A DNA stretch of 64,000 nt from Phormidium tenue FACHB-1052 (GTDB taxonomy: Bacteria > Cyanobacteriota > Cyanobacteriia > Phormidesmidales > Phormidesmidaceae): contig NZ_JACJQN010000003.1 in the NCBI RefSeq assembly GCF_014696675.1, positions 186,001 through 250,000 of the forward strand, written 5' to 3'. The number at the start of each line of letters is the position of its first letter. Positions within the stretch are counted from its first letter, which is position 1. A program made the position numbers and the translations under genes. A model generated the notes under the pieces. That model was not told the origin of the DNA, ran no database searches, and saw only the letters and a program-made list of their open reading frames with translations. Shown here one piece after another: positions 109 through 6,019 of this stretch.

Positions 109-2028
109 CTATTGCACAATGCCCCGGTAGGGATACCAGAGCTGCACCCGCTGACCCTGGGCCATCAAAAACTGACCATTGGGGCTGAACTGAAACTGGC
201 CCACGTCGTGGAGCTGCGAGAGCGGCTGCCCGTTCGCCACCGACCACAGGGTCATGCCCTGGCTGGGGATGGGCTCACTTTGCACCAGGGGCAGCAGCAG
301 GGTGCTGGTGGCCAGGGTTAGCCCATCGAGGCTAAAGGCCACTTCGCCTAGGTTGGTCGGCTGAATGGGGTGCCCCGCGCTTTGGTTAAGCGTGAGGGTA
401 TGAACCGTTTCGTAGGTTTGTCGGTTCCACAGGCGAGCCGTTTTGCCGTCGCTGGTGGCCAGACGCTGGGAGTCGGGGCTAAAGGCCAGGTGCCGCACGG
501 TCTCGGTGTGCCCGGTGAGGGTAAGCTGGCGTGCGCCAGTGGTGGCGTTCCAGAGCTTGACGCTGTTGTCGCGATCGCCCGTAGCCAAGGTTTGCCCATC
601 GGAGCTAAAGGCCAGGGGTAGAGGCGGGATACCACGGCCAGCTCGGTTGACCAGGGTTCGCACCAGTTGCCCCGTGGTGGCATCCCAGAGCTGGAGGGTG
701 TTTTGGTCAGTGGCGATGGCCAACCGCTGACCGTTGGGGCTAAACCGCAGGGTATGCACCATGCCATCGGCGGCATTCATCGGCATCGTCCGCAATAGCT
801 GCCCGGTTTGTAGGTTCCACAGTTTTAGGGTTTGGTCGGCGCTGGCGCTGGCCAGCGTGGTGCCGTCAGGGCTGATGGCGATCGTCCGCACCGCATACCG
901 ATGCCCTTGAAACGTGCGAATCTGCTCACCCGTCGTCGCCGACCACAGCCGCACCACACCGTAGGACATGCCCGCCGCGACAAACTGACTGTCGGGGGTA
1001 AACGCCACGGCATTGGCCACATCCCCCACGATGCGAGTGGCTTGGCTGGCAGGTTCCTGGGGCGGATTCCCTTGGGCAGACGCCTCTAGGGCTGGCCCCC
1101 GATGCAGAGTGATAATGCGATTGCCGCGCTCAGCGTTCCACAGGGCCAGGGCGCTTTCGCCCCGGATGCACGATCGCTCGTAGCTGTAGCTGCCGATGGC
1201 AATGGTTGCCCCGTTGGGGCTAATGGCCGAAGACGTGGTGTAGATCGGGCATAGGGAGTCGGGGTAGAGGGATTTTAGATCGATGCTGCTCGCCAACTGG
1301 GGTTGGTGCCAGGAGCCGATCTCCGGAGCGGGTAGATCTAGCGCTGTGCTGACCCAATTAAACAGCAGCGGCAGATACTGGTTGAACCGTTCGCCCTGGA
1401 GGTACATGGCGTCGATGGTGCAGCTGCCACAGCTCTCGCCCGAAAAAAGTTTGGCGATTTGCTCCCAGCTCACCCCGGCCCAGGGCAGGTGGCCCACTGG
1501 GGCATCCAGGGATGGGTTGATTTCTGACTCGGTCAGCCATTCTCCAGCAATCAAGGTGGGGTCTGCCATGCCGGGAGGGCGCGTCCAGCCGACGCGATCG
1601 CCAAAGGCCTTGGCCGCCACCGCCGAATCTACCGGGTTCGCGGCTCTCACCTCAGCCCAAATTTGCTGCTGCACGCTAAAGCCAAACCGACCGTCGCTGG
1701 CCTCAACCCAGAGCCGATCGAGGGTTTGCAGCACCTCCGGGGGAATGTTGGTCGCCAGCGGCGTACCGAGAATCGCGCCACCGGGATGAATCCAGGGATC
1801 TAGAATCCGGCGGGTTTCGGCATCGGCGGCCGCCCAGTCTTGGGCGGCTAGGTGCGATCGCAGCGCCCCCACATCTACCGCTTGGGCCTGGGCCCAGTTG
1901 GTTTGCTGAGCCGTCGGGTCGATCTGAGCTTGAAGGGAATTCACCGGCCAGCCCAACGTCATCGCCAGCACCAGGCCCAGGCCCAGATAGGCCAACCGTT
2001 TGAGTCGCTTCATGTTGCTGCGCATCAT
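109..2028 (-). CDS. exported GUN4-WD40 repeat fusion protein
   Basis: 639 residues. A basic N-terminus followed by a hydrophobic stretch (about 8-34) looks like a signal peptide ending near SLQA-Q. Residues about 54-185 match the GUN4 fold: an LRSHLAAQDW...ADAET helix, then LQTLDRLWVEASDGRFGFSVQ, FGDRVGW and LDAPVGHLP. GUN4 proteins bind porphyrins and stimulate Mg-chelatase, but GUN4 domains also occur fused to unrelated modules. From about 260 to the end there are about seven WD40 units of the form FSPDGxxLA...LWxxxTGxxxRTL, expected to form a beta-propeller. The start ATG overlaps the stop of the upstream lipoprotein gene as ATGATG (ATGA overlap), so the two are probably co-transcribed and translationally coupled. 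Domain calls are by eye; export and porphyrin binding are inferences. Confidence 0.88.
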   Translation of the reverse strand: MMRSNMKRLKRLAYLGLGLVLAMTLGWPVNSLQAQIDPTAQQTNWAQAQAVDVGALRSHLAAQDWAAADAETRRILDPWIHPGGAILGTPLATNIPPEVLQTLDRLWVEASDGRFGFSVQQQIWAEVRAANPVDSAVAAKAFGDRVGWTRPPGMADPTLIAGEWLTESEINPSLDAPVGHLPWAGVSWEQIAKLFSGESCGSCTIDAMYLQGERFNQYLPLLFNWVSTALDLPAPEIGSWHQPQLASSIDLKSLYPDSLCPIYTTSSAISPNGATIAIGSYSYERSCIRGESALALWNAERGNRIITLHRGPALEASAQGNPPQEPASQATRIVGDVANAVAFTPDSQFVAAGMSYGVVRLWSATTGEQIRTFQGHRYAVRTIAISPDGTTLASASADQTLKLWNLQTGQLLRTMPMNAADGMVHTLRFSPNGQRLAIATDQNTLQLWDATTGQLVRTLVNRAGRGIPPLPLAFSSDGQTLATGDRDNSVKLWNATTGARQLTLTGHTETVRHLAFSPDSQRLATSDGKTARLWNRQTYETVHTLTLNQSAGHPIQPTNLGEVAFSLDGLTLATSTLLLPLVQSEPIPSQGMTLWSVANGQPLSQLHDVGQFQFSPNGQFLMAQGQRVQLWYPYRGIVQ

Positions 2029-2672
2029 AGTCTTAGCCCCTGAATGATGGTGTCGAGATGGGGTTCAAAGGTTTCTACCGCTGTCTCGTCTGAGAACGAG
2101 CCGCTGGGGTCGCCGCTAATCACCCCGGTGACAAACACGTGGAGCATGGTGCCGTCGGTGGTCACATAGCCAATGCCCCGATCAAACAACGCCCCGTTAG
2201 GGTGAGTCATGGTGTAGCCGTAGCGGAGTCCGGGTAGGGTGCCCACGGAGATGGCTACCGGCGTTTCCCCCACAAACTTGAGGGCCGGGTCAGCCACCTG
2301 CCGGTCTTGTTCGATGGTGCGGTAGTGGTTGCTCACCCAGGCCTGAAGAAACTCAAGTTCTGACCCTTCGGGCAGCGGTAAGCCGCCCTGCACAGGGATC
2401 TCACTGAGGGGATGGCTAAAACGTTCTACCGTGCCAATCAGTTCACCGTTGGCCTCGACACACAGCAGCACTGTGTTGACGCAGGGCTCAACCTGCCAGT
2501 TTGGGGGAGCAGAGATCGGCCCCAAAATGTCGGCCCAGTTGGATGGGGTTGACTCGCCCTGAGACGTGGGTGTCTCCGGCGGAGCGGTCGGGGGCGTTGC
2601 GGAACAGGCTAGTAGAACTGTGGTGAGTAAACTGATGCCGACTAGAGCCGACAAGCGAAGCGGGGTTTTCAT
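2025..2672 (-). CDS. putative lipoprotein, unknown function
   Basis: 215 residues. The N-terminus has a type II signal peptide with lipobox LLAC and lipidation Cys23, followed by a Pro/Thr-rich linker, so the mature protein should be membrane-anchored on the outer face of a membrane. The rest is a soluble domain I do not recognise, with one Cys pair at about 63 and 70. Its stop codon overlaps the start of the GUN4-WD40 gene by four bases, so the two are likely an operon in which the lipoprotein is made first. Function unknown; a partner role with the WD40 protein is inference from the overlap alone. Confidence 0.75.
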   Translation of the reverse strand: MKTPLRLSALVGISLLTTVLLACSATPPTAPPETPTSQGESTPSNWADILGPISAPPNWQVEPCVNTVLLCVEANGELIGTVERFSHPLSEIPVQGGLPLPEGSELEFLQAWVSNHYRTIEQDRQVADPALKFVGETPVAISVGTLPGLRYGYTMTHPNGALFDRGIGYVTTDGTMLHVFVTGVISGDPSGSFSDETAVETFEPHLDTIIQGLRL

Positions 2673-2943: not shown

Positions 2944-3894
2944 TTAGCCGATCGCCAAAGTTATCGATCGCCCATCCGGCGCAAAAGCCCCCTGGGTTCC
3001 AGTCCTGGCGATCGAAACTTCGTCGTAGACGGCATTGTCTGTATCGATGGCTTTGACCTCAATGCGGTCGGCATAGACGCTAAAGGTGGTAAACCCAAGC
3101 TGCGAGCTGGCGTGGGCCGTCCAGTCAGAGCGATCTACCGAGCGCAGCTTAGCGCCATTGCCAGAGGTGATATAGGTGGTGCCGTCGATCGGCTCGGTTC
3201 TTTCATAGTTGTGGTCGTGACCGTTGATATAGAGCTGCACGCCATGTTCGGCAAGCAGGGGCGAGAGATCGTCAATTAGTTTCTGCTGAGAACCGTGGTG
3301 GCCTGACGAGTAGACGGGATGGTGGGCAAACACAATTTTCCAGGGAGCCTGCGATCGCCGCAGCTCGGTCTCAAACCAGTCGAGCTGGTCGCGCCAAGGC
3401 GATTTGTTATCGCTGTCGATGGCCTGGGTTGTATCGAGGGCAAAAAACTGCACAGACTGCTGAGTAAAGGTGTAGTAGCGCCCGGCCATGTTGTAGCCCC
3501 GATAGCGGAGCTGATCTTCTCCGTTGTTGGTGCGGATGTCGTGGTTGCCTAAGACAGCATAAAACTTGATGTTTTGGCGCAGCAGTTCAGCGTAGGGCTG
3601 CTCAAAAACCCGCTCAACCTTCTCAATTTCTCCGTCCTCATAGATGTTGTCCCCGGTGAGCAACACGAGGGGAGCCGCCGCCATCCGCTGCCGCCGCACC
3701 ATCGCCTGGGCTACGGCATGCTGTTCTCGCTCGCCAGTTCCCACATCCCCCGCTGCCATAAAGTTAAGCAGCGCATCATTTCCCGCCGCAGTTCTCGTCA
3801 AATAGCTGTCGGCAAAGGTTTGGGGCCAATAACGCCGCCCTACCGCTGCCGCAAAACCACCGAGGCCCAAGGCCAATAGTGCTCGACGTTTCAA
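2944..3894 (-). CDS. secreted metallophosphoesterase (purple acid phosphatase-like)
   Basis: 316 residues with an intact two-metal calcineurin-type core: GDVG (Asp50), GDN (Asp82), GNHD (116-119), AHHP (His191/192) and GHDH (225-228). This order is diagnostic for metallophosphoesterases; the GHDHNYER ending is typical of the purple acid phosphatase/tartrate-resistant branch. The N-terminus MKRRALLALGLGGFAAAVG is a signal sequence and may be Tat-type because of the Arg pair. A role in releasing phosphate from organic phosphoesters outside the cytoplasm is likely; the substrate is unknown. It is followed downstream by about 270 bp without a gene. Confidence 0.85.
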   Translation of the reverse strand: MKRRALLALGLGGFAAAVGRRYWPQTFADSYLTRTAAGNDALLNFMAAGDVGTGEREQHAVAQAMVRRQRMAAAPLVLLTGDNIYEDGEIEKVERVFEQPYAELLRQNIKFYAVLGNHDIRTNNGEDQLRYRGYNMAGRYYTFTQQSVQFFALDTTQAIDSDNKSPWRDQLDWFETELRRSQAPWKIVFAHHPVYSSGHHGSQQKLIDDLSPLLAEHGVQLYINGHDHNYERTEPIDGTTYITSGNGAKLRSVDRSDWTAHASSQLGFTTFSVYADRIEVKAIDTDNAVYDEVSIARTGTQGAFAPDGRSITLAIG

Positions 3895-4071: not shown

Positions 4072-4614
4072 CTATGATCTGCCCCGAATGGCGGGGGCGA
4101 TCGCCAGAGTCTCGGCCCCATATAGCATGGCCGCAATATCGCCATCCGTCCAAACGTGGGGAGATTGGCAGTGGTGGGCCACAAGCAATCCCCAGAGATC
4201 GTCACCCACCAGCACCGGCACGACGAGGTTGGCCTGCACCCGCAGCTCGCGCAGAAAATTGCGGTGACAGTCGGCTATCGGCTCGGTCTCAATATCGGCG
4301 ATCGCCCGAATTCGCCCAGCTAAATACAGCGCCGCATATTCGTCGGTAAAACATTCATCTGGCCCAGTAGAACCAAAGATCGAAAACTGCGGATCGCTGA
4401 GGGCTTCAAAGGTGACTCGCCCTTGCCAGGGGCGATAGAAGTAATACAACAGCACTCGGTCAGCGCCCAGTTTTTCTTGCAGATCGCGGGTGGTATCGAC
4501 GATCTGCGTGTCTTTCTCCAGGGTAGTCAAGAGGTGCGTAATGATCCGCTGAAGACCGTCATCGGCTCGCCAGTCCGAGTCGGGATGGGGCTGCTTAGAA
4601 GAGGGCTGTTGCAC
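4072..4614 (-). CDS. single GAF-domain protein with bilin-type Cys-His motif
   Basis: 180 residues, essentially one GAF domain of the phytochrome/cyanobacteriochrome class: DLQEKLGADRVLLYYF, DECF..Y...Y..GRIRAIADIE, DCHRNFLRELRVQANLVVPV and LWGLLVAHHC, ending near VWTDGD. Cys116-His117 occupies the place of the canonical bilin-attachment Cys-His of cyanobacteriochromes. There is no kinase, cyclase or methyl-accepting output domain, and no response-regulator gene next to it. It could be a stand-alone photosensor or a GAF domain that binds another ligand. Family assignment is solid; chromophore binding is inference. Confidence 0.8.
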   Translation of the reverse strand: MQQPSSKQPHPDSDWRADDGLQRIITHLLTTLEKDTQIVDTTRDLQEKLGADRVLLYYFYRPWQGRVTFEALSDPQFSIFGSTGPDECFTDEYAALYLAGRIRAIADIETEPIADCHRNFLRELRVQANLVVPVLVGDDLWGLLVAHHCQSPHVWTDGDIAAMLYGAETLAIAPAIRGRS

Positions 4615-5464: not shown

Positions 5465-6019
5465 TTAAATCTTCTTGGAGTTAGCAGGACAAGTTGGGTC
5501 AGTAGTTGCAACAGTACCTGTGTTGTAACCGCCACCAGGGGCAGCAAGTGCAGCGGCAGCAGCAGTATTAGCTTCACACAGAATCGCTACGCTAGTTGCG
5601 TCTTGGGTAACTCCGCCTACCGTCTGTTGCTTGAGCTGAACAGTGCCCTGATAAGACTTGACGCCGACATCGTTGCTAGTGCCGTTTGTATAGGTGCCAG
5701 CAGTAGTGACACCAGATGCTACGGCATAGTCGTAATACTGGGTGTCTTCAACAATGCCGATGCCCAGGTTGCCAATGGTATTTGCAAAAGTGGGATTTTC
5801 TAAGCGGTAGGCTTGTTGTGCGCGGTTAACAGAACCCACATAGGTTTTAGCTTCAGACTGACGAGCTTTGTTAGCCTGGTTGAGGAAAGAGGGCAGCGCA
5901 ATAGCAGCCAGAATACCGATGATGATAATAACCACCAGCAGTTCAATTAGGGTGAAGCCGCCTTCTTCTTTTTTGGTGATGAAGTGCTTCAGTAGGTTGG
6001 CTTTAAGAGATGCTTTCAT
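5465..6019 (-). CDS. pilA: type IV pilin-like protein (PilA family)
   Basis: 184 residues with a class III prepilin signal: a basic leader of 21 residues ending Gly-Gly, then FTLIELLVVIIIIGILAAIALP. Cleavage is expected between Gly21 and Phe22, with the conserved Glu5 of the mature protein at residue 26. The hydrophobic helix is followed by the usual NQANKARQSEAKTYVGSVNRAQQAY segment and a variable Ala/Thr/Gly-rich tail with two Cys residues that could form the C-terminal disulfide loop. It is likely a pilus or pseudopilus subunit for motility or DNA uptake. An AGGAGA ribosome site precedes the ATG. No other pil gene is adjacent. Confidence 0.92.
   Translation of the reverse strand: MKASLKANLLKHFITKKEEGGFTLIELLVVIIIIGILAAIALPSFLNQANKARQSEAKTYVGSVNRAQQAYRLENPTFANTIGNLGIGIVEDTQYYDYAVASGVTTAGTYTNGTSNDVGVKSYQGTVQLKQQTVGGVTQDATSVAILCEANTAAAAALAAPGGGYNTGTVATTDPTCPANSKKI

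Follow-up and report, generated by a model that had tools for sequence, protein, structure and literature searches.

The GUN4 fold is known from chlorophyll synthesis, where canonical GUN4 works with the cytoplasmic Mg-chelatase. According to PMC8967248, porphyrin binding draws on two residues, AtPhe191 (SynPhe196) and AtArg211 (SynArg214), whose replacement raises Kd. Excerpts of PMC10156173 define an LxNxLR motif whose Asn211/219 is required for bilin, and they describe a Chlamydomonas N219G mutant in which bilin binding is lost and porphyrin binding is kept; as far as these excerpts go, none of the paralogues in that paper's set keeps the Asn. Fusions of GUN4 to kinases, caspase homologues, TIR and trypsin domains are described in passages of PMC7159879, PMC2853523, PMC2176072 and PMC8195603, and a passage of the first of these suggests that GUN4 senses intracellular tetrapyrrole. 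Our own literature search, conducted mainly by title and outside subscription papers, recognised no exported GUN4 or GUN4-WD40 fusion, which is no proof of absence.

Here we describe a predicted exported GUN4-WD40 protein of Phormidium tenue FACHB-1052, encoded in a window of 64,000 nt (the whole stretch of DNA that was analysed). It shares with canonical GUN4 (PF05419; 1y6i, 7e2r, 4ykb) the GUN4 core and the motifs W..aS.GRFGFSVQ...W and AP.GHLP, but differs in its predicted export, in a CGSC extension and in its WD40 fusion, and it lacks Phe196, Asn211, Arg214 and LxNxLR. The GUN4 paralogues and cyanobacterial signalling fusions (kinases, caspase homologues, TIR) likewise have a GUN4-like core and are mostly without the bilin motif too; unlike the present protein, however, they lack CGSC and carry other partner domains, and just one of 24 such rows passes our signal detector. 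The best reading is that the protein represents a branch of the GUN4 superfamily that has paired cysteines and appears to be extracytoplasmic.

Results

A GUN4-like domain fused to a WD40 propeller

The coding sequence (639 aa; 109..2028, minus strand) was assigned from its reading frame, Pfam matches and relatives. Pfam places a GUN4-like domain at residues 49-185 (1474..1884, minus; PF05419, 79 bits against a curated gathering cut-off of 29.2, E 5e-22) and WD40 repeats in 5 stretches (PF00400, 143.1 bits against a cut-off of 27, E 1e-42). Both matches lie above the Pfam cut-offs and bear out, on the minus strand, the GUN4 and WD40 fusion that had been proposed by an earlier, sequence-only reading, which had named a profile search as a check. 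The PDB chains matched by residues 1-239 in phmmer include the GUN4 entries 7e2r (E 3.9e-12), 4ykb and 1y6i. The signature on which the fusion had been proposed (LDRLWVEASDGRFGFSVQ, FGDRVGW) does mark a GUN4-like core, but this core is common to other GUN4-like paralogues and does not consist of the porphyrin contacts. Compared with five relatives, the gene is under purifying selection across both GUN4 and WD40 (Ka/Ks 0.10-0.22). Six GUN4 matches above cut-off are found in this genome (5.82 Mb; the window is on contig 23), one canonical (221 bits) and five divergent, the GUN4-WD40 protein being among the five.

The propeller occupies residues 244-632 (133..1299, minus; PF00400). Its AlphaFold2 model (m899ecffb88a4) has strands for eight blades by our own strand count, and in Foldseek the designed eight-bladed Tako8 chains match at a TM (by target) of 0.79-0.82, against 0.68-0.70 for designed seven-bladed chains. 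The 10-residue mean pLDDT of the propeller model is 90-96 for most of 341-540, and lower at both ends, at 311-330 and at 551-590. Taken together, the PF00400 score, the model and the Foldseek matches indicate a closed WD40 propeller fold. The propeller anticipated from the letters thus stands, but its "about seven" blades give way to a predicted eight. Scattered blade and loop residues are invariant across the eleven compared proteins, even in L071 and L028; this pattern is compatible with a specific partner, without showing one.

The CGSC extension marks one clade

In this protein and its relatives, the domain core is followed by GHLPWAGVS...CGSC(T/S)xDA(M/L)...RF...LP.L, and then by WD40 or the protein end. 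The branch-specific extension, defined by alignment and a phylum profile search, covers residues 186-232 (1333..1473, minus) and aligns at the LxNxLR segment of canonical GUN4. Its CGSC motif (residues 200-203; 1420..1431, minus) is present in all 41 rows above 120 bits, L034 included. When the extension and the marker columns were removed, the GUN4 core alone still grouped the 40 CGSC rows as one clade against 24 other rows (support 95/91, in a tree without L067 and L082); with the extension kept, support was 96/86. Both trees carry long-branch warnings (L081, L080, L003, L079 and others). In the tree with the extension one non-CGSC row, L067_4925, falls inside the CGSC clade, and we take it and L067_5732 for pieces of a single broken gene.

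A profile of the extended domain (alignment A1, 9 sequences) gave matches that reach the domain's end in at least 14 of 386 phylum genomes, with the best 8 candidates per genome scored. Scores then fall from 145.7 bits to 114.9 bits for the next matches, which mostly stop short of the extension; because A1 was built from CGSC proteins, this drop is partly by construction and the tree is the better test. Below the 14 genomes, G121:C3 (93.6 bits) also reaches the profile end and has an internal stop. At E 1e-40 the profile matches 28 of the 63 genomes of the order; residues 1-237 are matched in 61 of the 63, mostly through ordinary GUN4-like domains only. Orthologues occur in eleven named loci, with 73-90% identity in the best segment, in Nodosilinea, Leptolyngbya FACHB-60, Tildeniella torsiva, Phormidium FACHB-1136 and relatives. 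A search of cyanobacterial genomes for the same layout, as had been advised from the sequence, finds it in Nodosilinea-like cyanobacteria.

Members of the branch differ in the partners of the GUN4 domain. The layout of the window's protein, a predicted signal peptide (SP) followed by GUN4 and WD40, recurs in L071, from another family. Ankyrin repeats stand between signal and GUN4 in L073-L075 (SP-ankyrin-GUN4) and in L029 (SP-ankyrin-GUN4-WD40); a signal peptide was detected in L029, L073 and L074 and not in L075. The remaining layouts are SP-unknown-GUN4 (L005 of the same genome, L030, L076, L077), SP or lipobox followed by an unknown domain and GUN4 (L032, L033, L078), SP-GUN4-GUN4 (L079) and short forms (L070, L080, L081). 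The domains fused ahead of GUN4 in L031, L032, L033 and L078 match no Pfam family above noise, and their two marginal PDB matches (E 0.002) were taken for chance. The frames of L023 and L069 end soon past GUN4, apparently as disrupted WD40 forms, and for this reason the gene seems dispensable in some genomes.

The same genome encodes a second predicted exported CGSC-type GUN4 protein at G000:C1:320034-320606 (L005, L064), in a 388-aa frame. Searches of Pfam and NCBIfam gave no family for its N-terminal domain, which carries its own two cysteines. At G000:C36:4668-5730 (L003, L006) lie two adjoining GUN4-like genes in which no signal peptide was detected, one of them behind a long N-terminal region.

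Canonical tetrapyrrole contacts are absent

Pocket positions were set through the AP.GHLP anchor in Synechocystis numbering; rows that could not be anchored (4 of 41 CGSC, 4 of 26 other) are uncounted. At positions 196, 198, 209, 211, 213 and 214 the GUN4-WD40 protein has Ile, Pro, Trp, Gly, Ser and Trp, where the canonical GUN4 of the same genome (L001) has F, W, L, N, L and R. The LxNxLR segment accordingly reads WAGVSW, versus LSNQLR in L001. Across the branch, Phe196, Leu209, Asn211, Leu213, Arg214 and LxNxLR are kept in 0 of 37 anchored members: position 196 holds Ile, Leu or Val, position 211 holds Gly in place of Asn, and position 214 holds Trp, Asp, Ser, Gln or Ala. What the branch has instead past GHLP is a W (36/37), a G (37/37) and the CGSC segment. 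Since the contact residues are missing in most of the 22 anchored other GUN4-like rows as well, the predicted exported forms are not alone in having lost them.

The sequence marks of GUN4 proper were thus not found in this protein, which has neither the Phe196/Arg214 contacts nor LxNxLR and carries an export signal predicted from sequence only. Canonical tetrapyrrole binding is, on these residues, not supported. The same holds for the porphyrin-binding module that the sequence-only reading had placed here: its pocket residues are lost at the sequence level, with Phe196, Asn211 and Arg214 absent in 37/37 anchored members. The AlphaFold2 model (12 sequences, mean pLDDT 69.4) is poor at 149-169 and 175-242, where the pocket and CGSC lie, and Foldseek gave no GUN4 entry among the 50 matches listed for it.

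Predicted export and paired cysteines

The N-terminus has a basic n-region and a hydrophobic core, and a Sec signal peptide is predicted at residues 1-34 (1927..2028, minus) with cleavage after residue 34 (LQA↓Q), as judged by a home-made detector and by sequence drift in ten relatives. No lipobox was found in this N-terminus. Whichever of the three candidate Met codons is taken as the start, the detector calls a signal peptide. Because 102 of 2000 shuffles of residues 2-60 pass it as well (about 5%; internal stretches, 0 of 520), this single-sequence call is weak evidence, and the case for export leans on the relatives.

Among these, the detector finds a signal peptide or lipobox ahead of 36 of 40 CGSC-branch domains versus 1 of 24 other GUN4-like rows, a comparison that leaves out L034, both L031 pieces (branch-gene fragments) and L063 (a 40.8-bit match, taken as spurious), and in which 24 of 28 non-CGSC rows remained, including two with truncated 5' ends. 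Only L088 among the 24 gave a positive call, and it did so at an internal Met. No signal was detected in four CGSC rows: L024 lies at a contig end, L069 and L075 have none from an in-frame ATG, and L033, whose N-terminus is hydrophobic, probably failed the detector's charge rule. All 22 orthologues inspected by eye begin with basic residues, followed by a hydrophobic stretch and a site of the AxA type. In ten relatives, signal-peptide identity is 24-35%, versus 54-85% for GUN4. The branch has one lipobox form, L078.

Past the predicted cleavage site, four cysteines are found in 20 of 21 full-length WD40 forms, the exception, L015, having five. The spacing of C200, C203, C260 and C287 is constant within one residue in 14 SP-GUN4-WD40 proteins. 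Cys260, in the first blade (1249..1251, minus), opens the second pair, and Cys287 (1168..1170, minus) is its presumed partner, so that two disulfides are probable among the four conserved residues. In L029, the ankyrin form, the second pair is missing, but two cysteines are present near the N-terminus. Cysteine counts past the predicted cleavage site are even in 30 of 34 type-I members versus 8 of 25 other rows, many of the members being close relatives and not independent, and the 25 rows including fragments. The type-I members with odd counts are L015, L023, L032 and L081. L079 has a second GUN4 domain in an exported protein, yet without CGSC. That this GUN4-WD40 fusion is exported is therefore well supported by prediction, through both the relatives and the paired cysteines, and the apparent signal peptide noticed in the sequence-only reading was recovered by the detector.

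A neighbouring lipoprotein gene

Upstream of the GUN4-WD40 gene, with its stop overlapping the GUN4-WD40 start, lies a lipoprotein gene (215 aa; 2025..2672, minus) with lipobox LLAC, a conserved internal cysteine pair and a PsbP/Mog1-like predicted fold, as assessed by sequence, locus comparison and model. Of 19 loci examined, 16 have the gene in this upstream position. Two of the other three lie at contig ends, and the third, L062, has 3.1 kb of upstream sequence without it. The lipoprotein model (pLDDT 64.7) matches CyanoP 2xb3 at Z 10.3, and PsbP/CyanoP entries in Foldseek at E 7e-5 to 7e-4 (2xb3, E 2.7e-4). CyanoP, LpqN, SciW, DcrB and Mog1 all score Z 9-11; because LpqN, SciW, DcrB and Mog1 match equally, we claim the Mog1/PsbP-like fold group only. 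The likeness to this group is one of predicted fold: unlike CyanoP/PsbP, the lipoprotein matches no Pfam family at E up to 5, and no PsbP chain by sequence profile at E up to 10.

The lipoprotein family occurs in 20 of 373 phylum genomes, 18 of them in one other family. Because 0 of 7 inspected loci there (about 1.5 kb each side) have a GUN4 neighbour, we describe the pairing as lineage-specific and do not call it obligate. A link to photosystem assembly would be speculation, because the fold match is not PsbP-specific and the family also lives without GUN4. Relatives of the lipoprotein with a hydrophobic N-terminus, the same cysteine pair and no GUN4 neighbour in the stretch examined are L099, L100, L101, L102, L103 and L106. 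Homology of the lipoprotein to the domain fused ahead of GUN4 in L031, L032, L033 and L078 was considered and is not supported (hhalign probability 0.6% and 0.3%).

Farther along the window, at 2944-3894 (minus), is a metallophosphoesterase with a twin-arginine-like start, found beside the GUN4-WD40/lipoprotein pair in 4 of 19 loci, the window included. A small GAF-domain protein (4072-4614, minus) and a type IV pilin-like protein (Pilin_GH, N-methylation motif; 5465-6019, minus) were also observed.

Discussion

We consider it slightly more probable than an even chance that this is an extracytoplasmic, disulfide-bonded binding protein built on a repurposed GUN4 fold, with the propeller as its platform and a lipoprotein as its partner. 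The protein would be exported by Sec to the periplasm or thylakoid lumen, and its two probable disulfides would form there. The segment that holds the tetrapyrrole in true GUN4 would have been replaced by the CGSC-containing one, and the repurposed domain would probably not bind bilin or porphyrin in the canonical manner, but bind a protein or another small ligand instead. The eight-bladed propeller would serve as an interaction platform. In the window's lineage, the protein would be made together with the neighbouring PsbP/Mog1-like lipoprotein, and this lipoprotein could anchor the complex on the outer side of a membrane. Periplasm, lumen and medium are not distinguishable from sequence.

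An extracytoplasmic tetrapyrrole binder, as envisaged in the sequence-only reading, is an unlikely alternative to this binding protein, although the GUN4 fold and its conserved core would suit it. Such a binder would use a remodelled pocket to scavenge or sense heme, porphyrin, bilins or the breakdown products of chlorophyll. The conserved W, G and CGSC at the old pocket segment could form a new pocket. Moreover, the Chlamydomonas N219G mutant keeps porphyrin, so the Asn of the bilin motif is not needed for porphyrin (excerpts of PMC10156173), and tetrapyrrole binding of another kind is conceivable for this reason. Phe196 and Arg214 weigh against it: their replacement weakens porphyrin binding (part of PMC8967248), and both are absent throughout the anchored branch. 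Less probable again is a redox-active protein, whose CGSC pair would serve in thiol-disulfide switching or exchange and not as a structural disulfide. Such a site would agree with the CxxC spacing conserved in the branch and with predicted export, but the second pair, C260 and C287, suggests structural disulfides, and no thioredoxin-type family appears among the 25 of 59 Pfam families listed or the 4 NCBIfam families.

A bolder proposal joins several of these elements, and we hold it to be improbable: an extracytoplasmic GUN4 branch with its tetrapyrrole site rebuilt around a CGSC cap would sense or carry pigment-derived ligands under redox gating in the thylakoid lumen or periplasm, its WD40 or ankyrin platform docked on a PsbP-like lipoprotein. 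We give the least credence to an N-terminus that is an uncleaved anchor or no export signal, with a cytoplasmic role like that of kinase-, caspase- and TIR-fused GUN4. Export is a prediction, and the long hydrophobic segment of L070 could be an anchor; however, the recurrence of signal peptides ahead of unrelated partner domains, the lipobox of L078 and the pairing of the cysteines all speak against retention in the cytoplasm. We thus favour the exported, disulfide-bonded binding protein.

A Pfam GUN4 match alone is poor ground for assigning tetrapyrrole binding, and the GUN4-WD40 protein and its lipoprotein form a testable pair. The papers cited here present GUN4 as a tetrapyrrole regulator of Mg-chelatase and as a module of signalling inside the cell. 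The CGSC clade, which recurs ahead of WD40 or behind ankyrin repeats and is consistently predicted to be exported, suggests that the fold has been recruited to a second compartment.
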